The notes under the pieces: model-generated | Seen by the model: the letters and a program-made list of their open reading frames with translations, nothing else | What the model was told of the DNA's origin: nothing | Database searches by the model: none | Made by a program: the position numbers and the translations under genes | Assembly (NCBI GenBank): GCA_021413845.1 | Contig: JAIOPP010000026.1 | Coordinates: forward strand, 62,001-126,000 | DNA from: Planctomycetia bacterium | GTDB taxonomy: Bacteria; Planctomycetota; Planctomycetia; Pirellulales; PNKZ01 | Length of the DNA: 64,000 nucleotides | Reading direction: 5' to 3' | Shown: positions 25,338 through 63,971 of the stretch, piece after piece | Layout: each line of letters opens with the position of its first letter | How positions within the stretch are numbered: the first letter of the stretch is position 1

Positions 25338-25367
25338 TTGGGAAGTTGGCCGGCGCGACGTTATAAT
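25338..25367 (+). promoter_or_regulatory. topoisomerase VI operon promoter
   Basis: TTGGGA (25338-25343), 18 bases, then a perfect TATAAT (25362-25367). Transcription would start near 25374, leaving a leader of about 135 bases before the TTG at 25509. This rules out upstream in-frame start codons. The other bases of the 378-base gap (25131-25508) show nothing I can name. Confidence 0.65.
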
Positions 25368-25508
25368 CGCCGCACTTTATCCAACTTGCAAGAGAGTGCG
25401 GATCGAGTCATCGAACGAGCCAGGGCTGGGCGACTCGCACGCGCGCCCGGTACGCTCCTCGCGCACGCCCCTTTCGCAAACGCCGCAAATGTTTACGGAG
25501 AACCGGTT

Positions 25509-27674
25509 TTGAAACGCCCGCCCGAGAAGTCGGCTTCGTCTCGCTCTAAGCCCAAAGCAGCGGCCAAGGAGCCGGAAACGGAAGAAGAGGTTGCCGCAGA
25601 GAGCACTGAAGAAGTCGCCGTGAAGTCGTCGGCGGCAAGCAACGGCCATAAGCCCGCCAAGCGCCGCGCCACGGCCGAGACGATGGCCGCCGGGCAGCGC
25701 GACATCTCCGTCAGCGAGTTCTTCGCTAAGAACCGGCATCTGCTCGGCTTCGACAACCCGCGCAAAGCGCTGCTGACCAGCGTGAAGGAAGCGGTCGACA
25801 ACTCGCTCGACGCTTGCGAAGAGGCCGGCATCTTACCCGAGGTTTGGGTCCATATCGAAACGACGGGCAACAACCGCTACAAGGTCGGCGTGCAAGACAA
25901 CGGGCCGGGGATCGTCAAAGCGCAAATCCCGAACATCTTCGGCAAGCTGCTCTATGGCTCGAAGTTCCACCGCTTGAAGATGAGCCGGGGCCAACAAGGA
26001 ATCGGCATCAGCGCGGCGGGCATGTACGGAGTGCTCACGACCGGCAAGCCGGTGAAGATCGTGTCGCGCACGGAGGCGAAGAAGCCGGCGCACTACTTCG
26101 AGCTGCAGATCGACATGAAGAAGAACAAGCCGGAGATTCTCAACGGTAAGGGAGAAGGGGAAGACATTCCGACCGGCGAAGCGGAGTATGCGAAGTTCGT
26201 CGAGAAGCGCGGCATGGAATGGATCGACACGGCCGGCGGCAAACCGGTCGCGCACGGCACGCGCGTGACGATCGAGATGGAAGCGAAGTACCAACGCGGG
26301 CGCGGCAGCGTCGACGAATATCTCGAACAGACGGCGATCGCCAACCCGCACATTACGCTGCACTACATCGATCCCGACGGCAAGACCTACGACTACTCAC
26401 GCGCCACGGACATCCTGCCGGCCGAGCCGAAGGAAATTCTTCCGCATCCCTACGGCATCGAGCTCGGCAACCTCGTGACGATGCTGCAAGCGACCAAAGC
26501 CCCGACGTTGTCGCAGTTCCTCACGTCGAGCTTCTCGCGGGTCAGCTCGAGCAAAGCGTCCGACGTTTGCGAAGCGGCCAAGCTCAGCACGCGGGCCAAT
26601 CCGGCCCGGATCGGTCGCAACGATAGCGAAGCGCTCTATCGTTCGTTGCAAGAAGCGAAGATTCCCGCACCGTCGACCGATTGCATCTCGCCGATCGGCG
26701 TGCCGCTGTTGCTCAAGGGGATGCATCAAGTGGTGCCGGCCGAGTTCTACGTCGCCGAGACGCGTCCGCCGGCCGTGTATCGCGGCAATCCGTTCCTCAT
26801 CGAAACGGCCTTGGCCTTCGGCGGCACTTCGGCTGCCGTGAAGATCTCGCTGGAAGCGCTGACCGAGATGCTGCACGAAACGGACGCCCGGACGTTGCGG
26901 CAATTCCTCATCAACGGCTTCAGCGGCATCGGCGGCGACGCGGCCGATAAGATTCTCACGGAAGCGGAGTTCGGCAATCGGACCTCGCCGGGCAAGCTCA
27001 AGCCGGCCGAGATCGCGAAGCTGCATGCCGCGATGCGGAACGTGAATCTCGAAGAGGGGCAAACGATGAACGTGCTGCGCTACGCCAATCGCGTGCCGTT
27101 GCAATTTCAGCCGGGTGCCTGCGCGATCACGCAATCGATCGTCGGCACGAATTGGCGCGCGTACGGACTCTCGCAATCGCGCGGCGGTCTGCCGAGCGGG
27201 CCGGTGACGATCATGGTGCATATCGCGAGCGTCTGGGTGCCGTTCACGAGCGAGTCGAAGGAAGCGGTCGCTTCGTATCCGGAGATTCAAAAAGAAATTC
27301 GGCTCGGCTTGCAAGCGGTCGGCCGGAAGCTGGCGATGTTCGTGCGGAAGCGAATGAAAGTGAAACAAGAAGGAGAACGGCGTAACATCTTCTTGCGCTA
27401 CTTGGGCGAAGTGGCCGAGGCCGTGCATACGATCAACGGCAACGACAAGAAAGCGCTCTACGATCAGCTGCTGAAAGTGGCGAAGCGCAAGACCGCCGAA
27501 GCCGACACGAAGCTCGACGACCAAGGCCGCAAGATCAAGCACGACGACGAAGACGATTTCGGCGACAACGTCCTGATCGTGAAACACGAAGACCCGACCG
27601 ACGCCAAGGGCAAGCCGACGAACGCCGCCGGAGATGAGCTGGCGCCGATCAAAGCGAAGAAAGGCTCGCGGTAG
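25509..27674 (+). CDS. top6B: DNA topoisomerase VI subunit B
   Basis: This 721-residue protein is the ATPase subunit of the type IIB topoisomerase that passes one duplex through a double-strand break in another. After a Lys/Ala/Glu-rich N-terminal tail of about 60 residues comes the GHKL ATPase fold with the N box (SVKEAVDNSLDACEEAG), DNGPGIVKAQIPNIFGKLLYGSKFH and the lid GQQGIGISAAGMYG. Then come the H2TH-like and transducer domains (about 230-560) and an acidic/basic tail. TTG 25509 is chosen because GGAG lies 8 bases upstream and the promoter excludes earlier starts. Topoisomerase VI is mainly archaeal and plant, with scattered bacterial cases. Subunit A lies downstream after an unrelated gene. 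Confidence 0.93.
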   Translation: MKRPPEKSASSRSKPKAAAKEPETEEEVAAESTEEVAVKSSAASNGHKPAKRRATAETMAAGQRDISVSEFFAKNRHLLGFDNPRKALLTSVKEAVDNSLDACEEAGILPEVWVHIETTGNNRYKVGVQDNGPGIVKAQIPNIFGKLLYGSKFHRLKMSRGQQGIGISAAGMYGVLTTGKPVKIVSRTEAKKPAHYFELQIDMKKNKPEILNGKGEGEDIPTGEAEYAKFVEKRGMEWIDTAGGKPVAHGTRVTIEMEAKYQRGRGSVDEYLEQTAIANPHITLHYIDPDGKTYDYSRATDILPAEPKEILPHPYGIELGNLVTMLQATKAPTLSQFLTSSFSRVSSSKASDVCEAAKLSTRANPARIGRNDSEALYRSLQEAKIPAPSTDCISPIGVPLLLKGMHQVVPAEFYVAETRPPAVYRGNPFLIETALAFGGTSAAVKISLEALTEMLHETDARTLRQFLINGFSGIGGDAADKILTEAEFGNRTSPGKLKPAEIAKLHAAMRNVNLEEGQTMNVLRYANRVPLQFQPGACAITQSIVGTNWRAYGLSQSRGGLPSGPVTIMVHIASVWVPFTSESKEAVASYPEIQKEIRLGLQAVGRKLAMFVRKRMKVKQEGERRNIFLRYLGEVAEAVHTINGNDKKALYDQLLKVAKRKTAEADTKLDDQGRKIKHDDEDDFGDNVLIVKHEDPTDAKGKPTNAAGDELAPIKAKKGSR

Positions 27675-45239: not shown

Positions 45240-45755
45240 TTACCGTAACGGGCGAAGGCCGCGAGCTTTTCGCTCCGTGCCGACCCAGTGCCAAGCCAAA
45301 GGCGATTGTTGCAGGAAGCGGGCCAGTTGGGTCGTCGAAACATGCAACTGCTCGGCAGCGATCTTCAAATCAAACTCGCAGCCTGCGACTCGATCGAGAG
45401 CTTCCGCTAAGAGAGACGGAAAATCGGCGTGATCGTCGCTCACCGTGAGTTTCCGGCGCGGCGTTCGGGACTGCCACAGAGCGCTCGGCGGTCCATCCGG
45501 CTCGATCGGTCGGCGGAGTTGCTCGGCGAGCGACTGGCGGAGGCGAAAGATCGCCTTTGCCAGGTTTTGCGCTTGGCTGCGAGTCTCATTGGCCTCGGCC
45601 CGAATGCCGGTCGGAATGTGCGTGAGCACGACGGCCGTTTCGACCTTATTGCGATGCTGCCCCCCTGGCCCGGTGCGGCGCGTGTGCTGTCGTGAACATT
45701 CGGCGAGAAGCTGCTCGCTGCCGAAGGTCGCGGGGTGAGGCACCGAGGGAGGCAT
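45240..45755 (-). CDS. release-factor-like protein with GGQ motif
   Basis: This 171-residue protein has the peptidyl-tRNA hydrolysis core of class I release factors, with the catalytic GGQ in RRTGPGGQHRNKVETAVVLTHIPTGIRAEANETRSQAQN. It lacks the codon-recognition domains. The tail after residue 100 (RRKLTVSDDHADFPSLLAEALDRVAGCEFDLKIAAEQLHVSTTQLARFLQQSPLAWHWV) resembles a helix-turn-helix rather than the basic tail of ArfB. It probably rescues stalled ribosomes or acts on a particular stalled state; that role is inferred. The gene stands alone. Confidence 0.78.
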   Translation of the reverse strand: MPPSVPHPATFGSEQLLAECSRQHTRRTGPGGQHRNKVETAVVLTHIPTGIRAEANETRSQAQNLAKAIFRLRQSLAEQLRRPIEPDGPPSALWQSRTPRRKLTVSDDHADFPSLLAEALDRVAGCEFDLKIAAEQLHVSTTQLARFLQQSPLAWHWVGTERKARGLRPLR

Positions 45756-46010: not shown

Positions 46011-47198
46011 ATGCTAAGCCAGTGTGCCGTTCGGATCGCGATGATCTTGTTCATGGTTTGCGTCGGTTTCTGCGACGCTACGGCACGTGCCGAGGAAGGC
46101 CCTTGGCTGACGGACTTCGAGGCGGCGAAAGCGCAAGCGAAGGCCGCGAAAAAATTGCTGCTGGTCGATTTCACCGGTTCCGATTGGTGCCCGCCGTGCA
46201 TGCGGCTCAAGGCCGAGGTCTTCGACGGCGAAGCGTTTAAGACCGCAGCTCCCGAGCAGTTCGTGTTGGTCGAACTGGACTTCCCGAACAAGAAGGTCTT
46301 GTCTGACGAACTGAAAAAGCAGAATGCCGAGTTGGCGAAGCGCTATGAGATCTCGGGCTACCCGACCGTCCTGTTGCTGGACGTCGAAGGAAACGTCGTC
46401 AGCCGAACCGGCTATCGTCCCGGCGGTAGCGAGGTCTACGTCAAGCATTTGCAAGACTTGGTTTCGACCTACGAACAGATCGCGAAGCTCAAGAGCAAGC
46501 TGGACTCCGTCGCGGGGCTCGACCGCGCGAAGCTGCTCGATGAGATCGTCGCCGGCTGCGAGAAGCTCGACGCGAAGAGCGCGGAAGCGGAGAAATACGG
46601 CCGCGAGATCGTCGCCTTGGATTCGGACAACAAGGCCGGCCTCAAGGTCAAGTACACCTACCGAGGGTTGATGACCGACGCCGCGAAGATGCTCGCGGAG
46701 AGGAAAGCCGCCGAAGCGCGCGCGGCCTACGACAAAGCCATCGAATTGTCCGGCATCACCGAAGTGCAGAAGCAGAATGCCTATTTCGAGCAAGGAGGCT
46801 GTTGCTTCGCGCTCAAGGATTTCGCGGGGGTCGTGAAATGCTTGGAGCAAGCCCTCGCCGCCGCTCCCCAGAGCGACCGGGCCGCATCGATCGAATCGAC
46901 CTTGAAACGATTCGCCCCCCTCGCCGCGGCGCAGTCTACGATCGCCAAGACGCAAACCGAATTGGAAAACGCCACGGGTGTAGGTCGCGCGAAACTATTG
47001 GATCAACTCATCGAAGCTCACAAGGTGCTCGGCCCAGCCGTTCGCGATCCGAAGCTGCCGGCCCAGATCGAGAAGTGGTCGCAGGAGATCGTACAACTCG
47101 ACCCGGAAAACCAAGCCGGCCTCAAGGCTAAATACGATAAGACTCCGCCGGCGGCTCCATCCAACCCGGCTCAGCCGAAAGCGGCGACGGAGAAGTAG
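46011..47198 (+). CDS. secreted thioredoxin-fold protein with helical repeats
   Basis: From ATG 46011 the protein has 395 residues with a signal peptide (MLSQCAVRIAMILFMVCVGFCDATARA). A thioredoxin-fold domain (about 30-150) carries the redox motif WCPPC (Cys 60, Cys 63) and the cis-Pro loop SGYPTVLLLD. The C-terminal 230 residues form TPR-like helices (AEARAAYDKAIELSGITEVQKQNAYFEQGGCCFALKDFAGVVKCLEQAL). An upstream reading to 45735 has no signal and is rejected. The protein aligns over nearly its whole length with the N-terminus of the convergent CHAT protein, whose stop lies 31 bases beyond its own. A periplasmic disulphide role is inferred. Confidence 0.82.
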   Translation: MLSQCAVRIAMILFMVCVGFCDATARAEEGPWLTDFEAAKAQAKAAKKLLLVDFTGSDWCPPCMRLKAEVFDGEAFKTAAPEQFVLVELDFPNKKVLSDELKKQNAELAKRYEISGYPTVLLLDVEGNVVSRTGYRPGGSEVYVKHLQDLVSTYEQIAKLKSKLDSVAGLDRAKLLDEIVAGCEKLDAKSAEAEKYGREIVALDSDNKAGLKVKYTYRGLMTDAAKMLAERKAAEARAAYDKAIELSGITEVQKQNAYFEQGGCCFALKDFAGVVKCLEQALAAAPQSDRAASIESTLKRFAPLAAAQSTIAKTQTELENATGVGRAKLLDQLIEAHKVLGPAVRDPKLPAQIEKWSQEIVQLDPENQAGLKAKYDKTPPAAPSNPAQPKAATEK

Positions 47199-47229: not shown

Positions 47230-50200
47230 TTATTTGCCGGAGCCCGAGAGTTGGAACGCGGCCCAGCGACGGACGTCGGCGCGGGCCGGCGCGACGGAAG
47301 CTGCGCTGATGCGTCCCCCGTCGGGCAGAGGCTTCGCCGCCCCCGGCGCTCGGCCGGCATACGCGCGGATCTCCGTCGGATTGCGCAGGATCGTCAATTG
47401 CGCGTTGCGTAGCGCCTCGAGCGGGCGTTGATTCTTCCGCCACAGGTTCTCGTAAAAGAGCCGCATCAAGGCCGAGGTCGCTTCGTCGTCGACCTTCCAA
47501 AGACTCGCGACGACATTGCGGCAACCGGCCACGTGAAACGCGCGCTGCAATCCGAACACTCCTTCGCCGCCGGCGACTTCGCCTAGGCCCGTCTCGCAGG
47601 CCGAGAGGACGGCGAGCTCGAGCTTCGAGAGGGGGAGACCGGCGATCGCTTCGGCAGTAAGAATGCCGCCGTCGCCTTGGGGTACGCCGGAATCGTCGAG
47701 CGGCCGGGGCAAGTTCGCACCGGCGAAGACGAGCCCCGACAGCAACAGCGGATTGCGGCCCGTCAAGTTGCTCGCAACATCGGGCAAGCGATCGCGAAAC
47801 GACGACTCGTCTATCTGCATCGCGCTGCGCATGGCGGGATCGGCGAAGAAGCCGTGCGTGGCGAAGACGGCCCAGCGGGCCTTCGGCAACTCGGAGATGA
47901 CGCGCGCCGTACCGGCTGCGTTGCCCGTCAGCTTCACGACCGAACGCTCGCCGACGAACCTCTCGATGCCCGTCACTTCGTTCGCCGTGCCGGGGAGCTC
48001 GGGCCAATGCAGCGTTTGCTTTTCATCCGTGGCGGCGGCACGAAGTTTCGCGATCTGCATCGAGGTCGAAGCGTCGATCGGAGCGACGCCGTACTGCACG
48101 CCGCCGACGGCCAGCAGCGCGCCCTCGGAGGTCGGGGTCGATGGACGCTCTAAATGATCCAGCAGCACTCGGCCGTTGGGCACGATCGCCAGTGCCGTTT
48201 CTTCTAGCAACACCGTGCCCGGCTTACTGCCCGGAAGCGCGGCCCAAGGGAGCGACGTCAACGGTCCGTCGGGCACGAGGTAGACCGTGTTTACGTCGGC
48301 CGGAAGCGCGGCGTGGAGCGGCTGCCAAACGAGCCGGCGCAGCTCCTCGACGGCCGTGGCGGACTTGCCGCTGAGCATCGCCTCGCGCCAGGCCTTGGCT
48401 TGAGCATCGATCGGCGCGGCAGGACCGAGATCGATCCGTTGCAACGGCCCGTCGCGAGTGACGACGAACGCGACATAGCTCGGGATGCTGTAGTTCGCCT
48501 TCGAAGCTTCGATGTTCGGGTCGTGAATACAGTGCTCGAAACGAAGCAGATCGATGAACACGGCATCGGCCGGCAGCGCGTGAGCCAGATCGGTATGCGG
48601 CCGACGCCGTTGCGCTTGCCCTTGCGCAATTTCGGGGACGAACGCCGCCAACCGCCGTTCCAACTCTTCCTTACGAATCGTCGTTTGCCGCAGCAGTTCG
48701 CGACGAACCGCAAGCCGCTCGGGATCGGCGGCGTTCATCGGCGCCAACGTGAGTCGGGACAGTTCTCGACGCGTTTCGAGCCACGTGCGATAGAGCGGTT
48801 CGACTTCCGGCGCCAGTGAATGTGCCAATGTTTGGCAGCGATCGGCGGCAAGTTGAAACACCGCGGCCCGTCCCGGCCAGATGTGGGCATAGAGCTCGTT
48901 GTTCGCCTGTTCGGTGTTCTTCGAAGCGGTGATCAGCACATCCAGCGGCCAGCGGAATTTCGCCACGAGCTTTAAAGATTCGGTTTCCGAAGCGACGGCG
49001 AACACTCCGTCTTGCACGACCTGGCGAATCCCGATCCCTTCGGCTAAATACTTGATCGCTTGATCTACTTCACCCAAATCGAACAGGATCGTCCCAAGGC
49101 TGATGAGGGAGTCCGCCGTACTAGGATGTGTCGGTCCTAAGACTTCTCGCTCGATCGCCACGGCTTGCGTGAGATGAGTCCGCGCGGCCTCATATTTTCC
49201 TAAGGCCCGGCATGCCCACCCTACGCTCGAGTGCGCCTGAGCCGTACTGGGATGCCGAGCTCCCAAAGACTCTTTACAAATTGCGAGCGACTGTTCCTGA
49301 TAGGGAAGAGCCGCTGCTTGGCCCTCTTGCACCTTCAGTACCGCGGCGAGATTATTCAACGAGACCGCCATCTCGGGATGTTTATCTCCTGTGAGCGCCT
49401 TGAAGATCGCGAGGGATTGTTCATGACACAAGCGCGCGTTTTGGAACTCTCCCATGGCGACGAACGACTTACCCATGGCGTTGAGTGCGATGGCCGTATC
49501 GGGATGTTTATCGCCGTAGTATTCCTTTTTGATCGCCAGAGCCTGAACGAAGTAGGGCCTCGCGGCTGCGTGGTCCCCCAACGATGTGAGAACCCCCCCG
49601 ATGCCATCGAGAGCATGTGCGGCGTCCAGACTTTTCTCTCCGAGAACTTCTTTGCGGATCGCGAGCGAGCGTTCGAAGTAGCGCCGAGCCGTTGCCTCTT
49701 CCCCGAGCGATTGAGATACGGAACCTAGATTGCCGAGCGCGTTGGCCGAACTTTGATGTTTTTCTCCATAGACCTCGAGATAGATCGCGAGTGCCCGCTC
49801 GAAGTAGGAGCGTGCCGTTTCGTATTCCCCCATCGATCTCAGCAACACGCCCAAATGGTTGAGTGCTACGGCCGTATCCGGATGCCGAGGTCCGAGGACT
49901 TGCGTCGAAATCTCCAAGGCCTCTTCGTAGTAGGGTCGCGACTTTCCGTAGTCCCCCATCGCTTTGAACAAGCTGCCGAAGCTAGTAAGCGAATCGACCG
50001 TTTCGAGAGTTCTATTCCCGAAGGCTCGCCTCCTGCCCGCCAACGACTCTTCGTAGTAGGGGATCGCCTCGGCATACCGCGTGAGGCCTAAGAGTTGGGC
50101 TCCTACGTTATTCACCGCTTGAGCCGTGCCGGCGTTATCATTGCCGAGCACCTTGCGGCGAATCGCCAAGCATTCTTCGGCCAGGGGCAAGGCTTCGCGG

Positions 50201-51459
50201 AATCGGTTTTGCTTGTAAAGCGCGACCACTTCTTGAGCCAATCGGTTCGCCTCTTGGATCTGCGCCCCCTCTGCGGGCGTGAAGTTTTTTGCGGTCAGAT
50301 CCATCGACGTCAACTCGATCGGCGGAGAGTTGGCATGCTTGGCCTTCAGGCCGGCTTTGTTCTCGGCATCCAATGCTACGATCTCTCGCGACCAAGCTTC
50401 GAAACTTCGAGTCGGAGTGATATCGGGAAGAGCGCGCTTCAAAATTCTCTGCGCTTCGAATAACCGATCCAACAACACGGCCCGCTCCAGCCCCGTCGCT
50501 TTTCCGAGACTTACGTTGACTTCCGCGATGATCTTCTGGGCCGCGGCGAACGGAGCGCTTTTCTCATAACGCCCGTAGATCGACTCCACTCGGTCGCTCC
50601 GCGGAGCCGCCGCGCGGGCCTGCTCTAGGCCGGCGATGACGCCCCGAAAATCTCTCATTTCGAAGTAGCAGCCCACTTGGTCCATGTAGGCGGCTTGCTT
50701 CTGCAAAGCGGTGATTCCGGGAAGCGCGAGGATGCGATCGTAGGCCGCGAGCGACTCCTGAATCTTGCGTTGCTTCAATAACTTATCTGCGTCATCCATC
50801 GCGATGCGAAAAACGTGATTGCCGTTTAAGCCGGTTTGGTTTCGGGGGTCTAAGTCGAGGATCTCTCGGCTCAGCGCCAGCGCGATCTCCTTGTCGTGGC
50901 TGAGCGTGTCGTGGCAGCGAACCATTTCATCCAGGAGCTTCGCGCGCTCGAGACCTCGGCTCTTCGGCAACTCGCCCTGTAAGACGATCGAGCGTGCATA
51001 GGCATCCGTCAGCTCGCGCAGATGTGCGACGTACTTTTCTCCGCCGCCGGTCCGATACCCGGTCTTCGTGATCACCGCGCCGTCGGGGGCGATCAACAGC
51101 ACGATCGGCACTTGGGTAACACCGTACCTGCGCGAGAGCTCGTCATTCTGTTTCTTGACCGCTGCGGGGAGAACCTTCTTGCCAGGAAAGTCTACCTCGA
51201 CCAAGACGAACCGCCGGCGAGCCTCGGCCTCGAACGCCTCGCTATCGAACACTTCCCGCTTCATCGTCATGCACGGCGGAACTCGATCGGAGGCGGTGTA
51301 GTAGAGCAGTAAGACTTTTTTCTCGGTCTGCGATTGAATCTTCGCCGCCTCGAAGTCGGTGCGCCACAGGTCACCCTCGGCACGAATCGCACCGCCGTGA
51401 AACGTCAGACAAACCAGCAGCGCAATCGCGGCGCAGCGAACCGGATAACTACTCGACAT
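47230..51459 (-). CDS. thioredoxin-fold/TPR/CHAT-domain exported protein
   Basis: This 1409-residue protein has a signal peptide (about 1-27). Residues about 30-390 are a paralogue of the neighbouring thioredoxin-fold protein, including the helical part, but with VPPC (Val 60, Cys 63) in place of CPPC. About ten TPRs follow (about 410-830), with consensus phrases such as ALNHLGVLLRSMGEYETARSYFERALAIYLEVYGEKH. A helical linker leads to a C-terminal CHAT caspase-like protease domain (about 1060-1405) with His 1202 (FATHGFF) and Cys 1288 (LSACETGLGEVAGGEGV). Both catalytic residues are present. It lies 42 bases downstream of a Ser/Thr kinase gene, probably co-transcribed. CHAT-TPR proteins are proteases in several known defence and stress pathways; the substrate is unknown. 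Confidence 0.88.
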   Translation of the reverse strand: MSSSYPVRCAAIALLVCLTFHGGAIRAEGDLWRTDFEAAKIQSQTEKKVLLLYYTASDRVPPCMTMKREVFDSEAFEAEARRRFVLVEVDFPGKKVLPAAVKKQNDELSRRYGVTQVPIVLLIAPDGAVITKTGYRTGGGEKYVAHLRELTDAYARSIVLQGELPKSRGLERAKLLDEMVRCHDTLSHDKEIALALSREILDLDPRNQTGLNGNHVFRIAMDDADKLLKQRKIQESLAAYDRILALPGITALQKQAAYMDQVGCYFEMRDFRGVIAGLEQARAAAPRSDRVESIYGRYEKSAPFAAAQKIIAEVNVSLGKATGLERAVLLDRLFEAQRILKRALPDITPTRSFEAWSREIVALDAENKAGLKAKHANSPPIELTSMDLTAKNFTPAEGAQIQEANRLAQEVVALYKQNRFREALPLAEECLAIRRKVLGNDNAGTAQAVNNVGAQLLGLTRYAEAIPYYEESLAGRRRAFGNRTLETVDSLTSFGSLFKAMGDYGKSRPYYEEALEISTQVLGPRHPDTAVALNHLGVLLRSMGEYETARSYFERALAIYLEVYGEKHQSSANALGNLGSVSQSLGEEATARRYFERSLAIRKEVLGEKSLDAAHALDGIGGVLTSLGDHAAARPYFVQALAIKKEYYGDKHPDTAIALNAMGKSFVAMGEFQNARLCHEQSLAIFKALTGDKHPEMAVSLNNLAAVLKVQEGQAAALPYQEQSLAICKESLGARHPSTAQAHSSVGWACRALGKYEAARTHLTQAVAIEREVLGPTHPSTADSLISLGTILFDLGEVDQAIKYLAEGIGIRQVVQDGVFAVASETESLKLVAKFRWPLDVLITASKNTEQANNELYAHIWPGRAAVFQLAADRCQTLAHSLAPEVEPLYRTWLETRRELSRLTLAPMNAADPERLAVRRELLRQTTIRKEELERRLAAFVPEIAQGQAQRRRPHTDLAHALPADAVFIDLLRFEHCIHDPNIEASKANYSIPSYVAFVVTRDGPLQRIDLGPAAPIDAQAKAWREAMLSGKSATAVEELRRLVWQPLHAALPADVNTVYLVPDGPLTSLPWAALPGSKPGTVLLEETALAIVPNGRVLLDHLERPSTPTSEGALLAVGGVQYGVAPIDASTSMQIAKLRAAATDEKQTLHWPELPGTANEVTGIERFVGERSVVKLTGNAAGTARVISELPKARWAVFATHGFFADPAMRSAMQIDESSFRDRLPDVASNLTGRNPLLLSGLVFAGANLPRPLDDSGVPQGDGGILTAEAIAGLPLSKLELAVLSACETGLGEVAGGEGVFGLQRAFHVAGCRNVVASLWKVDDEATSALMRLFYENLWRKNQRPLEALRNAQLTILRNPTEIRAYAGRAPGAAKPLPDGGRISAASVAPARADVRRWAAFQLSGSGK

Positions 51460-51501
51460 GCATCTGTTCCTGAGAAGCGTTGCGCAGCTTTTCGTGCCGC
51501 G

Positions 51502-53175
51502 CTATCGATGAGCGAACCGCACGGCTTTCACCAGATCGAAGCGTTCGCGAAGGCGCTCGAGCGACTGAATGACCGGATCGTCGATCGTTTGGATCGAGCC
51601 CGGCCCGCGCGTCCCGGCGGTTGCGTCGGTCACGACGACATCGAGCGACGACGCAGCGGCGCGCGTGCGATCGATATCGAAGGCGACGAAACCGTCGCCG
51701 GCCGCAGGGCCTGTCGCCGGCAAGGTGCCGATCAACTTCGCCAAGTCCAAGCCGTCTTCCGGCCGCTGCTCGGCGGCTAACAAAACGATCGTCTCCAGGC
51801 CCGGCGCGCCGACCATCTCCCAGCCTTGATCGAGCTTGGCCGGGCTATGCAACTCGCTGCGCGGCGTCGCTCCGCCGGGTCCGACGTCGTCGAGCCGAGT
51901 CACTTTCCCTTCGGAGTCGATCCAAACCAGATAAAGATAAGCGGCACGATTGAGCGACACCTCGAGATGGACCTGCTCGCCGTTGCGAACCGGCAGCGCG
52001 TTCGGATCGGCGATCGAGATGCCTCGCTTCGTGTTTCCGGCAGTGCTCCATACGCGCACCTTCAACTCTCCGGCAAGCCTTGGGGGTACCGCATCGGCCA
52101 CCGGCGAAACAGCCGGGACTGCTGCGACGCTCTGCCCAGTCGCGTCGGGCCTGACGAGCCAAGCCACGGCGGCAACCGTAGCGACGAGCATCAGGCTCAC
52201 GACGGCGGCAGTCCTCCGTTTCAGCTTCGGCCGCTGGAGGTAATTGCGAAGCGCCCCTTCCAATTGGCCGGCATTGGCGAAACGATCCGCGGGAGATTTT
52301 GCCAGGGCCCGTAGGACGATCGCTTCGAGTTCCGGAGGAATGTCGGCACGAATGCTGCGCGGCGGCGCGATCTGCCCGAGCTTGACGACCTCGAAGGCGC
52401 GGCTCAAGGCGCACGCACCGACATCGTGCGGAGGTCGACCGGTGAGGAGTTCGTAGAGAATTGCACCGAGCCCGAAAACATCGGTCCAAGGCCCCAGCGT
52501 GCTTTCAAGCCCTGCGGCCTGCTCCGGAGCCATGTAGGGGAGCGTCCCGGAAATGCCCGACTCGGTTGCGCGGGCTTCGGTCCAGATCGACGACGAAGTG
52601 CCGAGGCCGAAGTCGAGCACGCGAACACGGTCTTGCGAGTCGATCAGCACGTTGGCCGGCTTCAGATCTCGATGCAACACTCCGCGGCGATGCGCCGACT
52701 CGAGCGTATGCGCCAAGTCGGCCACGATCGATACGGCCCGAGCGGGAACGATCGTCGTTCCGTGCGCTTCATCGTACAGCGTGCGACCGGCGACATACTC
52801 GAACACGATATACGGCCGACCTTCGGCGAAGTCGACGTCGTACACCTTCACTAAGCCGGGATCATCGAGCTCGGCGAGAATCTTCCCTTCGGCGAGGATC
52901 GATTTTTGCAACTCCGGAGGAAGCTCCGCGTTCGCCCATTTGATGACTACGTCGCGCGACGAAAGTTCGAGATGCACTCCCCTGTAGACCGTGGCTTGCG
53001 ATCCTCGGCCGAGAAGTTGCACGATGCGATACTTGCCGATCTGCGCCGGCAAGGTCGCCTCGCCGGCATGCTGCGGCACCGTCAGACGAATATGTTCGAT
53101 GGTGGGAGCCGGGCGAGCAGCGATCGCGCCTGAAACGGACGTCTTCGATAATTCACCCACAGGTCGCGCGCTCAT
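51502..53175 (-). CDS. membrane-anchored Ser/Thr protein kinase with DUF4384-like domain
   Basis: This 557-residue protein has a Hanks-type kinase domain (about 46-310): glycine loop LLGRGSQATVYRG, Lys 79 (VVIKW), catalytic HRDLKPAN (Asp 170), DFG 188-190, and APE in MAPEQAA. One membrane helix follows (about 321-341). The extracytoplasmic part (about 365-557) has a domain like DUF4384 (GEQVHLEVSLNRAAYLYLVWIDSEGKVTRL), found in other sensory kinases. All kinase residues are present. The gene precedes the CHAT gene on the same strand with 42 bases between, which suggests that the kinase regulates, or is regulated with, the CHAT protein. That link is inference. Confidence 0.88.
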   Translation of the reverse strand: MSARPVGELSKTSVSGAIAARPAPTIEHIRLTVPQHAGEATLPAQIGKYRIVQLLGRGSQATVYRGVHLELSSRDVVIKWANAELPPELQKSILAEGKILAELDDPGLVKVYDVDFAEGRPYIVFEYVAGRTLYDEAHGTTIVPARAVSIVADLAHTLESAHRRGVLHRDLKPANVLIDSQDRVRVLDFGLGTSSSIWTEARATESGISGTLPYMAPEQAAGLESTLGPWTDVFGLGAILYELLTGRPPHDVGACALSRAFEVVKLGQIAPPRSIRADIPPELEAIVLRALAKSPADRFANAGQLEGALRNYLQRPKLKRRTAAVVSLMLVATVAAVAWLVRPDATGQSVAAVPAVSPVADAVPPRLAGELKVRVWSTAGNTKRGISIADPNALPVRNGEQVHLEVSLNRAAYLYLVWIDSEGKVTRLDDVGPGGATPRSELHSPAKLDQGWEMVGAPGLETIVLLAAEQRPEDGLDLAKLIGTLPATGPAAGDGFVAFDIDRTRAAASSLDVVVTDATAGTRGPGSIQTIDDPVIQSLERLRERFDLVKAVRFAHR

Positions 53176-53216: not shown

Positions 53217-53222
53217 ATTATA
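53217..53222 (-). promoter_or_regulatory. -10 element of the kinase-CHAT operon
   Basis: A perfect TATAAT on the minus strand lies 42 bases upstream of the kinase start. No good -35 is found at the usual distance, so another sigma factor or an activator may be involved. The rest of the 306-base gap (53176-53481) is AT-richer than its surroundings and shows no gene. Confidence 0.4.
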
Positions 53223-53481
53223 ACAAGAATCCACCACGGTTGTGATTGCGTATCGTCGTGAATTAACGTCGCCGTATTAAATATCGGGGGAAATCGACTT
53301 TCGGCCCGTCGATCCCGAGCGATACCGTAACGATTCCTCCGCTAATAACGCATTTTTCGGTAACGAAGAAGTCGCCATTCAGATCGTATCCGAACGTGTT
53401 TTCCAGGCGCTCCCTGCAAGTAATATCGCCTCGCACGATCGCGAGTTAATAGCCTCGCAGAACGCCCGAGCACTCGGCGCG

Positions 53482-56400
53482 TTATCGCTCGCTCGGGCGT
53501 GCGCCGAATAGCCAGCGGCGAGCCCAAGTCGTATACGAGTCGGTTTCCGTCGAGTCCTTGAGACGGCGCTCGAGGTTGATGAAGCTCTCCGACGGCACGC
53601 TCTCGGCGCGATCCGCACCCGCCGCGAAGCGCTGACCGGCGACCGCCTCCAACAATTCGGGAAACCAAGCCGGCGCTTTCCTGGAAGGGGTCGAGAAGTT
53701 CCACATCTTCGCTTGGAAACTATCCATGGAGACGACCGCCGACCGACCATCGGGGCTGACGGCGAACCGCGTACTGGTACCTTGAAAGCCGGTGCCGCCG
53801 TTGATGAATTGCTCGAGATGTACCGTCAGCGGATGGCACGTCTCGACATCCCACACTCGCAAACCGCGAAAGTCGAGCGTCAGCAAGCGTTCGCCATCGG
53901 CGCTGAATCGCAAGTTGCGCACTCCTTGCTCGTGCCGTAAGCCGCGCGAGTGAGGAAGCCCCGTCTCGGCGTCCCAGATCATGGCCGTCCGATCGCGCGA
54001 GGCCGTGGCTACATAGCGGCCGGTCGGCGAGTAGGCCGTGTCGATCACATCTCCCTGGTGAGGAAGAATCGCGAGCTCTTTCCCCGTGGCCGTGTCCCAG
54101 ATTCGCCCGGTGAAATCGAGCGATCCGGTGAGCAACCGCCGACCGTCGGGACTGAAGAAAACCGTCATCACTTCATTTCCATGTCCGACGAATTCACGAA
54201 CCAACTCTCCGGTCGAGGTGTCCCAGAGCCGTACGACGCGATCCTCTCCCGCACTCGCCAACTGAAGCCCATCGGAGGAGAAGGCGAGCGCGTTGATCTC
54301 CGAACCATGCCGCTTTTCCCACAAGGGTCGGCCGGTCGTCGCATCCCACACGCGCACCATCATGTCGGTCGATCCCGTGGCGAAGCGTTTCCCGTCCGGA
54401 GAGATTTCCGCGGGTTGAATCGTCGTGGGAAACACGACGCGCTCGGTCGCGAGCTTGCCTTCCGGGATCGACCAGAGCGAAACTTGGCCGCGCGAAGTCG
54501 TGGTGATGAGGCGACTCCCGTCGGGTGAAAACATAATTCCCCAGGCTCCGCCGGCGACTCGCAACGGCCCGGAAACGACCGCACCGGTCGCGCGATCGTA
54601 AATCCAGACTTCGCTCGTCGTCTTCGCCACCGCGACGAGGCGGCCGTCGGGACTGATCTTGCAGGCGTCGTGCGCGCCGGGATCGTCTGCTCCGAAGGAG
54701 CGGTCGAGTGGATTGCGACCATCGACGATTCTCCATAGTTGCGCGGCCCCGGTCTTCGTGTCGGACGACCGCGACTTCAGATGCGATACCGTTGTCAAAC
54801 AAACCTCGTCGGTCGCGCGACGGTCGTACTCCGCATGGACGACCCGATGCTGATGGCGCATTGGTTCGCAATAGCTTCGGCCCGTCGCGACGTTCCAAAT
54901 CTGCGCGCGAGAGTCGTCGGCCCAAGACAACAAATGCCGGCCGGCGTTGAGAAACGCGGTTCCTTCGAGCAAATAATAATGGGGGAGCGGAGGAGAAATC
55001 GGCCGAGCGGTACGTGCATCCCAGACCCGAGCGTAGTGGCTCAGTCCGATGCCGGCGATCTGGTCGTTGCCCGTTCCGAAGGCCGCATTGACCAGAATTC
55101 CATCGACGCCGATAAACTCTTTGCGGTTCTTTCCCGAAGGGAAATCCGAAATCCAACCGCGCCCTCGCGCATCGACCACGACGGCGCGCGTGAGATCGTC
55201 GCTGACGTCGGCATCGCGAAACGGCCCGACTTTCAAACCGGCTTGTTCTTCGCCCGACGGAAGTTTCCAAACGCGCAGTCGGGATTCTTCGCCGTTCAAT
55301 TGAGAAGTGAAGAACGCTTTCTCTTCGTCGATGAAACGGGCCGCCGCGATTTTCCCTTCATGCCGCAACGGCCCGAGAAGGACCAGGCCGTTCTTGCCGT
55401 CTAAGATCGAGACGCTTTGCGGCGTCCGAGAGAGGAGATATCGGCCATCGGAACTAAATTGGATTTTCACGACCCGTTCGTCGTGTAAACATGGAGCCCC
55501 GACCGGACGGCCCGACGCGGCCTCCCACAGCCGCACCGTTTTGTCGTCGGAACAAGTCGCCAGCAGCGAGCCGTCGGAGTTGAACTCCGCCCAAGTCACC
55601 GGCCCCGCATGCACGAGCGGAGGTGCCGCGGGCTCCGAGGTCGAAGCGTCCCATAGCCGCGCCGTGCCGTCGTACGACGCCGTGACGATGCGCCGTCCGT
55701 CGGGACTTAACCGCGCGACCGTCAACTCGTTTCCATCCGGATGACGAATCAGCGGCGCAGCGGGAACGGGAAAGCGCCGGTTTTCCATCACCGACATCGC
55801 GAACATCGCGGCTTTCCAATCATTCGGATTCTCTCGCAGCAGTGCTGCCGTCTTCGCCAGCGCACTCGACGATTCCCCTTGCTCGAGCATCGCGTCGATC
55901 GCACCCCACTCCAGATGCGCGACGTTCTCCGTCAACGTGACGTTCGCACTCTGTGCACGTTGCCACTGCCAAAACGCAACGCCGGAGCCGACGATGATCG
56001 TGAACAGCAGCGTGCCGCCGAGAATGGAGAACCGCGGATTGCGTCGACACCAGCGCCAAGCTTGCTCGACACGACTGACCGGGCGAGCGACGATCGGCTC
56101 GTTGCGGATAAAACGTTCGAGCTCGTCGGCGACGGCCGCCGCCGAGGGATAGCGCCGCTCAGGCGCCTTCTCCAGACAGCGGAGCGCGATCGTTTCGATA
56201 TCGCGATGCACGGCCGGATTCAATTGCCGCGGCCGCGTCGGACTTTGCTCGATCGCCGAGCGCATGGTTTCCCAGGCCGTGGCGCCCGCAAACGGCGGAC
56301 GTCCGGTGAGCAACTCGTAGAGCGTCGCGCCGAGGCCGTAAACGTCGGCCGAGGTCGTTACCAGATCGAGCCGGCCGGCCGCTTGTTCGGGAGCTAAATA

Positions 56401-57147
56401 GCCGGGCGTTCCGAGAATCGCGGCGGAAAGCGTGAGGCCGCCGTCGTCGTTCCCCGTAAGTTTCGCGAGGCCGAAATCGGTGAGATGCGGCTGGCCTTGC
56501 TCGTCGATCAAGATGTTCGACGGCTTCAAATCTCGATGCAGAACGCCCCGTTGATGCGCGAACTCGATGGCCCGCGCCACTCGGGCCATCAGCTCGGCGA
56601 TGCAAATCTCTTGCTCATGCTTCGCCGTGGTGCCCGACTTTTCGGTAAGCCGAAAATCTCGAATACATTCCGCGAGGCTGACCCCTTCGATCAGCTTCAT
56701 GCTGAAGAAGTGCTGCGTCTCGAATTCACCGATTTCGTAAATCGGGACGATCGCCGGATGATGCAGCCGCGCAGCCGCTTCGGCCTCTAAGCGAAACCGA
56801 CGGATCGATTCGGGGCTGGCTAACTGCCCTCCGAGAATCATCTTCACGGCGACGGTTCGGTTCAGGCTCCGCTGGCGGGCCCGATAGACGACTCCCATGC
56901 CGCCGCGGGCGATCTCCGATTCCAGTTCGTAGTCGCCGAACTGCGGTAAAACACCCTGTTTGATGAAGCGCTCGACGGCGGAAACCAAACCGCCGCTGAA
57001 GGTCGAGCGGGATTCGCTATCGACGCGCGACGACGACCCTCCGGAGCCGAGCCCAAGCTGCAACAAGCAATAAGCGCAACCGGCGTCGTTGCCGCCTGAA
57101 ACCGGCTTTCCGCAAAATCGGCAAGTTGCTTCCGCATCGCGCGTCAT
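53482..57147 (-). CDS. Ser/Thr protein kinase with WD40 repeats
   Basis: This 1221-residue protein opens with a small cysteine-rich module (CRFCGKPVSGGNDAGCAYC, about residues 10-28). A Hanks-type kinase domain follows (about 73-345): IARGGMGVVYRARQ, Lys in VAVKMI, HRDLKPSN, TDFGLAKL and APEQAAG. One membrane helix lies at about 372-395. More than ten WD40 blades make up the remaining 800 residues (for example VTWAEFNSDGSLLATCSDDKTVRLWEAASGRPV and INALAFSSDGLQLASAGEDRVVRLWDTSTGELV). The gene is divergent from an ECF sigma factor. Planctomycetes have ECF groups linked to such kinases, so phosphorylation may replace a classical anti-sigma factor (inference). Confidence 0.92.
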   Translation of the reverse strand: MTRDAEATCRFCGKPVSGGNDAGCAYCLLQLGLGSGGSSSRVDSESRSTFSGGLVSAVERFIKQGVLPQFGDYELESEIARGGMGVVYRARQRSLNRTVAVKMILGGQLASPESIRRFRLEAEAAARLHHPAIVPIYEIGEFETQHFFSMKLIEGVSLAECIRDFRLTEKSGTTAKHEQEICIAELMARVARAIEFAHQRGVLHRDLKPSNILIDEQGQPHLTDFGLAKLTGNDDGGLTLSAAILGTPGYLAPEQAAGRLDLVTTSADVYGLGATLYELLTGRPPFAGATAWETMRSAIEQSPTRPRQLNPAVHRDIETIALRCLEKAPERRYPSAAAVADELERFIRNEPIVARPVSRVEQAWRWCRRNPRFSILGGTLLFTIIVGSGVAFWQWQRAQSANVTLTENVAHLEWGAIDAMLEQGESSSALAKTAALLRENPNDWKAAMFAMSVMENRRFPVPAAPLIRHPDGNELTVARLSPDGRRIVTASYDGTARLWDASTSEPAAPPLVHAGPVTWAEFNSDGSLLATCSDDKTVRLWEAASGRPVGAPCLHDERVVKIQFSSDGRYLLSRTPQSVSILDGKNGLVLLGPLRHEGKIAAARFIDEEKAFFTSQLNGEESRLRVWKLPSGEEQAGLKVGPFRDADVSDDLTRAVVVDARGRGWISDFPSGKNRKEFIGVDGILVNAAFGTGNDQIAGIGLSHYARVWDARTARPISPPLPHYYLLEGTAFLNAGRHLLSWADDSRAQIWNVATGRSYCEPMRHQHRVVHAEYDRRATDEVCLTTVSHLKSRSSDTKTGAAQLWRIVDGRNPLDRSFGADDPGAHDACKISPDGRLVAVAKTTSEVWIYDRATGAVVSGPLRVAGGAWGIMFSPDGSRLITTTSRGQVSLWSIPEGKLATERVVFPTTIQPAEISPDGKRFATGSTDMMVRVWDATTGRPLWEKRHGSEINALAFSSDGLQLASAGEDRVVRLWDTSTGELVREFVGHGNEVMTVFFSPDGRRLLTGSLDFTGRIWDTATGKELAILPHQGDVIDTAYSPTGRYVATASRDRTAMIWDAETGLPHSRGLRHEQGVRNLRFSADGERLLTLDFRGLRVWDVETCHPLTVHLEQFINGGTGFQGTSTRFAVSPDGRSAVVSMDSFQAKMWNFSTPSRKAPAWFPELLEAVAGQRFAAGADRAESVPSESFINLERRLKDSTETDSYTTWARRWLFGARPSER

Positions 57148-57376
57148 TCGAGAAGCTACGTCACTGAGGGGGGGCTACCCACATCGCTCGCTCGCGAAGA
57201 TCGGGCACCGTGTTTTCAGAACTTGTATGTCGTATACTGAAACGCTCTCGCTCGCAAACCGACCGGTCGCACGTTCCCCACTCGCCTGAATCAGGAAACT
57301 CGTTTTACGTCTATCTTATTCACGCCTACGCGGAAAGCGAACTAGGCTCCGCCGAATCGACCCCGCTCCCCTGCCC

Positions 57377-58126
57377 ATGTCGGACTCGCTTCAAGACCTG
57401 CCGCCGAAGAAACGCTTCGCCACGACGCAGTGGAGCGTCGTCTTGCGCGCCGGTGCCGTCGGGTCGGAAGCTACGCAACAGGCGCTCACCGAGTTGACGC
57501 AGTCGTATTGGTATCCTCTGTACGCCTACGCGCGCCGGCAGGGAAACGGCGAACACGACGCGATGGATCTGACTCAAGGATTCTTCACGCACCTGCTGAG
57601 CGGCAATGCGCTGGAATCGGTGTCGCCGGAGAAGGGACGATTCCGCTCGTTTCTCTTGGTGGCCTTCAGAAACTTCATGGCGAACCAGCGTCGCGCCGCC
57701 GATACGATTCGTCGCGGCGGCGCGGTCAAGATTCTCTCGCTGTCGGCCGAAGACTTTCCGGCGAGATTCGATCGCGAACCGACGCACGCCGAGACGCCGG
57801 AGATGTGCTTCCAGCGCAATTGGGTCGAAGCGCTCTTGTCGAAGGTTCGTTCGGCCTTGGTCGACGACTATCGGCAAGCCGGAAAGGAAGCGTTGTTCGC
57901 GCTGCTGGAACCGTATCTCATGCATCGCGGCGATGCGCTCCCTCGCACGGAGATCAGCCGGCGCATGAACCTCAGTGCGGCGGCCGTTTCCATGTCGATC
58001 CATCGCATGCGCCGGCGCTACGGCGAATTGTTGCGTCAAGAAGTCGCTTCGACAGTCGATGATCCGGGCGAAGTAGAAGACGAACTACGGACGCTCATGG
58101 CGATCGCCGGCGGCGCGACGATTTGA
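57377..58126 (+). CDS. ECF RNA polymerase sigma factor (kinase-linked type)
   Basis: This 249-residue protein has a sigma-2 region (about 20-95: TTQWSVVLRAGAVGSEATQQALTELTQSYWYPLYAYARRQGNGEHDAMDLTQGFFTHLL) and a C-terminal sigma-4 helix-turn-helix (ISRRMNLSAAAVSMSIHRMRRRYGELLRQEV). The TTQWSVV opening and DLTQGFF phrase are typical of the large planctomycete ECF groups encoded beside Ser/Thr kinases. It is divergent from the WD40 kinase with a 229-base shared promoter region. TATACT at 57233-57238 is a possible -10 with a weak -35. No membrane anti-sigma gene is adjacent. Confidence 0.87.
   Translation: MSDSLQDLPPKKRFATTQWSVVLRAGAVGSEATQQALTELTQSYWYPLYAYARRQGNGEHDAMDLTQGFFTHLLSGNALESVSPEKGRFRSFLLVAFRNFMANQRRAADTIRRGGAVKILSLSAEDFPARFDREPTHAETPEMCFQRNWVEALLSKVRSALVDDYRQAGKEALFALLEPYLMHRGDALPRTEISRRMNLSAAAVSMSIHRMRRRYGELLRQEVASTVDDPGEVEDELRTLMAIAGGATI

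Positions 58127-60470: not shown

Positions 60471-63971
<3,501 letters not shown>

Follow-up and report, generated by a model that had tools for sequence, protein, structure and literature searches.

Clan CD proteases include the caspases and the CHAT peptidases, and separase, which is eukaryotic, intracellular and cleaves cohesin, is a CHAT-related member of the clan. The TPR-CHAT protease of the Craspase complex is inactive until a non-self target RNA, bound by its partner, switches it on (PMC9729208). In DdvA, a single transmembrane polypeptide, a CHAT domain is combined with an anti-sigma output (PDB titles; PMC4374960). In cyanobacteria, the domain DUF4384 has been described as an accessory part of orthocaspases (PMC8283722 and PMC7475262), 23 of which appear with it in Table 1 of PMC8283722. 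Planctomycetota Ser/Thr kinases typically consist of a cytoplasmic Pkinase domain, usually one membrane helix, and a periplasmic WD40 or TPR part (PMC11032199). Here we analyse a stretch of 64,000 nucleotides (the window: positions 62,001 to 126,000 of contig JAIOPP010000026.1, assembly GCA_021413845.1) from a Planctomycetia bacterium of the order Pirellulales, in which a membrane Ser/Thr kinase with a DUF4384-like outer domain lies beside a predicted exported protein made of a thioredoxin fold, a TPR array and a CHAT peptidase. We propose, at a probability of roughly 45%, that the two genes form an envelope module in which signals would pass outside-in, from the exported TPR-CHAT protein via DUF4384 to the kinase. 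The sequence basis for this module consists of the adjacency and common direction of the genes, an export signal, the order kinase-helix-DUF4384, intact motifs, and recurrence in other genomes.

Both genes lie on the reverse strand, 42 nucleotides apart. The upstream gene (51502-53175), called from its open reading frame (ORF), Pfam matches and hydropathy, encodes a kinase of 557 residues whose catalytic domain (residues 46-314, 52234-53040; Pkinase, 132 bits) carries the motifs VVIK, HRDLKPAN, DFG and APE, starting at residues 76, 168, 188 and 216. These motifs and the single membrane helix that follows (residues 325-341, 52153-52203, from hydropathy) mark it as a Hanks-type transmembrane kinase. 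The tail (residues 368-551, 51523-52074) is a beta-rich, DUF4384-like domain predicted to be extracytoplasmic: it scores 25.8 bits against Pfam DUF4384 (PF14326; curated cut-off 27), and relatives score 26.5 bits (locus L082) and 28.8 bits (L129, whose tail was found by a profile built from the same set of DUF4384 tails). A profile made from relatives covers the region. The downstream gene (47230-51459) encodes 1409 residues, beginning with a predicted signal peptide, MSSSYPVRCAAIALLVCLTFHGGAIRA (about residues 1-27, 51379-51459; called by eye and by a home-made rule, the cleavage site by eye). There follow a degenerate thioredoxin-fold unit (residues 32-165, 50965-51366; Thioredoxin_7 over residues 32-125, 32.3 bits), a region that travels with this unit (residues 166-385, 50305-50964), a TPR array (about residues 427-850, 48910-50181; some ten repeats judged from length, with TPR_12 matching in eight stretches) and the CHAT domain (residues 1038-1407, 47239-48348). 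The last scores 211.9 bits against PF12770 (curated cut-off 24), and its His1202 (47854-47856) and Cys1288 (47596-47598) do not vary in either of two alignments (9 and 19 sequences, that of the window included). A structure model of residues 830-1409 (mean predicted local distance difference test score, pLDDT, 78.5) finds Csx29/TPR-CHAT of Craspase (Z 25.0), separase (Z 22.8) and DdvA (Z 19.0) as fold matches. By profile, dyad and modelled caspase/separase-like fold, the protein is thus a predicted CHAT peptidase of clan CD. A preliminary description, made from the sequence alone, had listed a DUF4384-like membrane kinase 42 nucleotides upstream of an exported protein with a thioredoxin-fold unit, about ten TPRs and an intact CHAT dyad, and all of these parts are present.

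The proposed direction of signalling derives from the predicted topology. Export was called by a strict home-made rule on planctomycete CHAT genes not cut at the start, and a signal was predicted in 43 of 56 TPR-CHATs (10 of the 13 with an upstream DUF4384 kinase and 33 of the 43 others); the rule is passed by 1 of 63 kinase genes and also by 212 of 524 mixed other genes, and the N-termini of several CHATs that it misses resemble signal peptides by eye. An exported CHAT, which the preliminary description had taken for an unusual place of action, is therefore the common case among planctomycete TPR-CHATs. In 20 of the 22 distinct kinases that were read, the kinase domain is set apart from DUF4384 by a membrane helix. 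Given the export signal and the placement of the helix, DUF4384 and CHAT should meet outside the membrane, and the two catalytic domains lie, by prediction, on opposite sides of it, so that the CHAT protein should be out of the kinase's reach; this separation makes kinase-dependent protease activity unlikely and favours the outside-in direction. In the module that we envisage, the CHAT protein and DUF4384 would both be located in the extracytoplasmic space, in contact with one another. The TPR array would keep the protease silent until an envelope ligand or a damaged protein binds, the activated CHAT would dock on DUF4384 or trim it, and the kinase would change state inside the cell as a result. 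DUF4384 would be the coupler, and its fusion partner (kinase or caspase) and the adjacent protease (CHAT or caspase) would be the variable parts.

The pair recurs when it is sought from the DUF4384 side. A profile (A1) was built from five DUF4384 tails, each taken from a locus that had been retrieved because of a CHAT or TPR match. Searched against 196 genomes of the window's order, it hit 32 places, spread over 25 genomes, and the surroundings of every one were read; four of these places (L138, L139, L140 and L149) are without a DUF4384 gene by profile and were left uncounted. Among the 18 kinase-DUF4384 genes of this draw, a CHAT gene lies directly downstream on the same strand in eight and within 5 kb in another arrangement in three, and one is followed by a TPR gene cut at the contig end, in a genome where a CHAT ends another contig. 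Without the four seed loci, the counts are six direct, two near and six with none, out of 14. Six direct neighbours in 14 are far from chance, since CHATs are few per genome against thousands of genes (PF12770 gives three matches in the window genome at E 1e-5, and the maximum in the order draw is 11, in genome G323, where 11 of 20 candidates were scored), with the qualification that related genomes are not independent. Four CHAT match places, the window's included, were located in the window genome. Another genome, G121, has 58 kinase matches and four CHAT matches; just two of the former come within 5 kb of any of the latter (distances by match coordinates), and both are on DUF4384 kinases. 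The same pair is present in several families of the order, and in a survey of named genomes limited to the best 80 loci a kinase-DUF4384 gene stands beside CHAT in two, both planctomycetes (L151, Pirellulaceae bacterium PLA7; L154, Planctomycetia bacterium 336R). The ten DUF4384 genes of the order draw that lack a kinase domain directly precede CHAT (three), a TPR gene at a contig end (one) or a caspase (four), and two are cut by contig ends.

The history of the parts suggests which of them does the coupling. The window kinase domain groups with those of L134, L142 and L231 (support 99), away from the kinases of its nearest CHATs, and holding it with L082, L112 and L151, a group taken from the CHAT tree, is rejected (approximately unbiased test, AU, p 0.0045). 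Across 14 pairs, distances between CHATs correlate with those between DUF4384 domains at r 0.83 (partial r 0.63) and with those between kinase domains at r 0.74 (partial r 0.37), all of these correlations still containing shared species history. Because the kinase grouping is discordant and DUF4384 distances track CHAT more closely, we read DUF4384 as the probable coupling part and the kinase domain as exchangeable; a comparison within the DUF4384 tree of a tail following CHAT with one following the kinase domain gave no decision (AU p 0.27). The same two results would also suit an arrangement in which DUF4384 anchors the exported CHAT at the membrane or inhibits it, with the kinase domain merely reporting occupancy or standing by, as would the kinase-free DUF4384 proteins encoded directly before CHAT or caspase genes. 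However, the window kinase retains its motifs, and 18 genes of the order draw have the kinase architecture, so that the kinase is probably used, and we regard such anchoring or inhibition as rather unlikely. A near-invariant Arg lies late in the kinase-linked DUF4384 region; it was left out as a candidate cleavage site, the wider alignment stopping short there in the caspase-linked sequences.

DUF4384 is not confined to kinases. It is also fused to caspases or encoded directly before them, and DUF4384-caspase fusions were seen in planctomycetes; for this reason the common link seems to be DUF4384 and not the kinase. Beyond the order, a profile of 22 tails (A3) found 45 places in 33 of 294 genomes of the phylum, three of which the order set already contained; seven of the remaining 42 were dropped as having no DUF4384 gene by profile (L232, L234, L240, L241, L248, L252 and L255), leaving 35 genes. 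Seventeen of these lack the kinase domain, and they lie directly before a caspase (five) or CHAT (one), near a caspase (two), or beside none (nine). DUF4384 beside some clan CD protease is therefore of wider spread than the kinase-CHAT pair. It is possible, though less likely than not, that exported clan CD proteases of both kinds, CHAT and caspase, generally use DUF4384 as an extracytoplasmic docking site or substrate, and that DUF4384 kinases are receptor kinases which a partner protease switches from outside the cell; if so, these kinases would be a bacterial counterpart, in logic, of protease-activated receptors. Two kinds of locus may be recorded here. The window genome has a second DUF4384 locus (L145:5759-9649, contig C142), where a DUF4384-caspase lies directly upstream of another caspase protein, and standalone DUF4384 proteins stand directly upstream of WD40-caspase fusions at L135:4781-9259 and L137:3772-8030. 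Searches for distant relatives of the domain yielded nothing significant among PDB sequences (best E 0.44). A profile of A4, run against the PDB, matched release factor 1 in helical regions (E 0.0014), which was taken as spurious. The best Foldseek match of the DUF4384 model is RhoGDI (E 0.034), and its VIA Z scores reach at most 7.4 (an oligosaccharyltransferase subunit and assorted Ig-like domains), within the tool's stated background. Foldseek also listed a Bacillus intracellular proteinase inhibitor (3isy) at rank 31 (E 0.19), a match on which we do not build.

Besides the breadth of the export rule and the shared history in the distances, several observations weigh against an outside-in module. 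By Foldseek and VIA, the DUF4384 model is without a clear relative of known function. Neither CHAT nor caspase is found within 5 kb of six of the 18 order-draw kinases. Among the kinase genes of the phylum set, CHAT lies directly downstream of 2 of 18 (L085 and L260), or 1 of 16 once L085 and L121, which were picked by their CHAT, are set aside. Of the remainder, seven have a gene for CHAT, caspase or TPR no more than 5 kb away (at L257 a CHAT lies 916 nucleotides downstream on the same strand), one has a TPR gene at a contig end, one a caspase, six none, and one lies at a contig edge. The preliminary description asked whether the pair is conserved as neighbours: this holds on the kinase side within the order, where the pair is frequent among DUF4384 kinases, and weakens beyond it, where the pair is sporadic. 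Seen from CHAT, 43 of 66 domains in a tree that is biased to relatives of the window CHAT (it omits the shorter CHAT pieces and the majority of loci from other phyla) have no DUF4384 gene nearby; upstream of the rest stand a kinase-DUF4384 gene (11), a DUF4384-caspase (two) or another DUF4384 gene (one), and nine have DUF4384 otherwise within 4 kb. One of the 43, L086, would be paired if its contig joins that of the kinase. PF12770 matches occur in 162 of the 196 order genomes and DUF4384 matches (A1) in 25. By the count of 43 in 66, CHAT genes do not in general belong to such a pair. The draw includes three further genomes of the window's own genus, and these carry CHAT but gave no DUF4384 match with A1; in two of the three (loci L100 and L109) the CHAT ORF is overlapped on its upstream side by an ORF with a caspase domain (Pfam-checked in L100). 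The worry that CHAT stands alone among unrelated neighbours in most relatives is thus borne out for CHAT at large, but in the starred group of eight rows that holds the window CHAT six are paired: the window, L082 (59% identical in CHAT to the window), L151, both CHATs of L154, and L086 on the contig join just mentioned, L119 and L153 being unpaired.

Such a distribution raises the question of coincidence in a kinase-rich genome. There are 53 kinase match places in the window genome, the window kinase counted in, and the next gene upstream of the pair, 306 nucleotides away, is another Ser/Thr kinase, bearing WD40 (53482-57147), which also lies within about 5 kb of the CHAT gene; the other same-genus genomes in the draw gave no DUF4384 match, and most CHATs have no such neighbour. 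Chance adjacency would not, however, be expected to recur in several families of the order and in the named genomes L151 and L154, and in view of the kinase-side neighbour counts we consider it very improbable. CHATs with a kinase-DUF4384 gene upstream imply at least seven changes on starred branches (a quick tree, whose stars are less safe), and the pairing has therefore been repeatedly made, lost or exchanged. The GC (guanine plus cytosine) fraction, at 0.57-0.66 over the pair against 0.60-0.63 in the flanking sequence, gives no clear indication of a foreign island.

Fusion of the thioredoxin unit to CHAT appears to be private to the window. Facing the CHAT gene on the forward strand is a standalone secreted thioredoxin-TPR gene (46011-47198; its ORF is listed from 45735, and 46011 is the probable true start by eye), whose product is 49% identical to residues 3-381 of the fusion protein; the region of residues 166-385 is common to both. 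This neighbour has an intact WCPPC, as WCxxC is kept in 6 of 6 relatives read from other loci, whereas the fusion has RVPPC and hence lacks the CXXC active site of a redox-active thioredoxin. In a tree of seven rows the two are sisters (support 90/91, not starred) within a starred group of three, whose third member is a copy in a second genome of the same family, and the branch of the fusion unit is the longer (1.0 against 0.35). Among the ORFs of the fetched loci the unit is joined to CHAT in the window alone, and in whole-genome searches the listed matches to the N-terminal part outside the window genome are ORFs of at most 585 residues, therefore too short for TPR-CHAT. From this kinship, the fusion being found only here, and the loss of the motif, the unit looks like a private addition through local (inverted) duplication, with the convergent gene as the likely source; in the module it would be an addition without redox activity, probably serving for binding or stabilisation. 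Redox sensing, proposed in the preliminary description, is accordingly unsupported and was rejected: CXXC is gone and no other CHAT ORF of the fetched loci has the unit. Adjacent genes and a thioredoxin fold in one protein with an intact CHAT invite a reading in which control runs inside-out, the kinase switching the protease and the thioredoxin unit sensing redox state, but the predicted topology and the export signal part the two active sites and the unit, devoid of CXXC, is fused to CHAT only here, so that we give it very little credence. Beside the thioredoxin gene is a short RF-1-domain protein (45240-45755), presumably ArfB-like in view of its length.

Among described systems, DdvA would be the closest analogue in logic and Craspase the nearest precedent in protease activation. 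DdvA likewise uses a CHAT domain in membrane signalling, and PDB entries 8rot and 8rw5, which we take to be DdvA of Myxococcus xanthus, match the fold at Z 18.8-19.0 over 313-320 residues, with a weak sequence-profile match (E 0.0034). Unlike DdvA, where CHAT, membrane helix and cytoplasmic output share one polypeptide, the window divides these between two genes: its CHAT is a separate, predicted exported protein whose membrane partner is a kinase with DUF4384. The TPR-CHAT of Craspase, the best fold match, has the same succession of TPR array and CHAT and the same His-Cys dyad; Craspase is RNA-guided, in contrast to the window, whose CHAT protein is predicted to be exported, and no Cas7-11 (gRAMP) or other cas family was found in a scan of window genes that took in every listed ORF of more than 690 residues. 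That a TPR-CHAT protease works in this CRISPR type III-E system (PMC9729208) might point to an anti-phage or self-killing module like other bacterial CHAT or caspase systems, with the kinase as trigger, and PADLOC kinase models do match the window kinase domain. These same models score better on the adjoining WD40 kinase and hence look generic, the CHAT protein matches PADLOC at E 0.001 only through a TPR model, and predicted export makes a cytoplasmic target unlikely; with no specific PADLOC match, we judge a defence function improbable. The cyanobacterial orthocaspases share with the window the combination of DUF4384 and a clan CD protease, the difference being that the window has DUF4384 attached to a kinase, with its protease, a CHAT protein, encoded separately. 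The layout of the kinases described in PMC11032199 resembles that of the window kinase, and the main text of that survey names neither DUF4384 nor CHAT nor caspase. Literature linking DUF4384 with the CHAT domain was not found (weak evidence of novelty, as most subscription papers lie outside the search), and work on CHAT, planctomycetes and kinases together concerned retroelements only. DUF4384 is thus known on orthocaspases, and its presence on a kinase paired with an exported CHAT appears, on such weak evidence, to be new.

Membrane kinases number in the dozens in planctomycetes (53 matches in one of two genomes counted and 58 in the other), mostly with inputs that are unknown, and a recurring pair of kinase and exported caspase-like protease offers both a testable kinase input and a testable role for DUF4384. 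It would also place planctomycete CHAT proteases in the envelope and not inside the cell. That a number of related bacteria keep the pair by way of a shared outer domain suggests an envelope alarm that signals inward. Genes upstream of DUF4384 kinases elsewhere hint at a transcriptional output: by family scan, an extracytoplasmic function (ECF) sigma factor gene lies directly upstream in three of the four loci scanned (L124:7107-7715, L126:7089-7685 and L131:8179-8769), the fourth, L142, giving no match. The window kinase differs, the gene upstream being the WD40 kinase. Directly upstream of the window kinase is a weak promoter-like site, ATCACA-18-TATAAT with a TG extension (53217-53246, reverse strand), one such site being found where 1.2 are expected by chance.

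Beyond the WD40 kinase, the ORF at 57326-58039 gave no family match, and Rfam had no match within the 64-kb window. A topoisomerase VI B subunit, unusual in bacteria, is encoded at 25338-27674. At 60471-63971 lies a gene for an MmeI-type restriction-modification enzyme.

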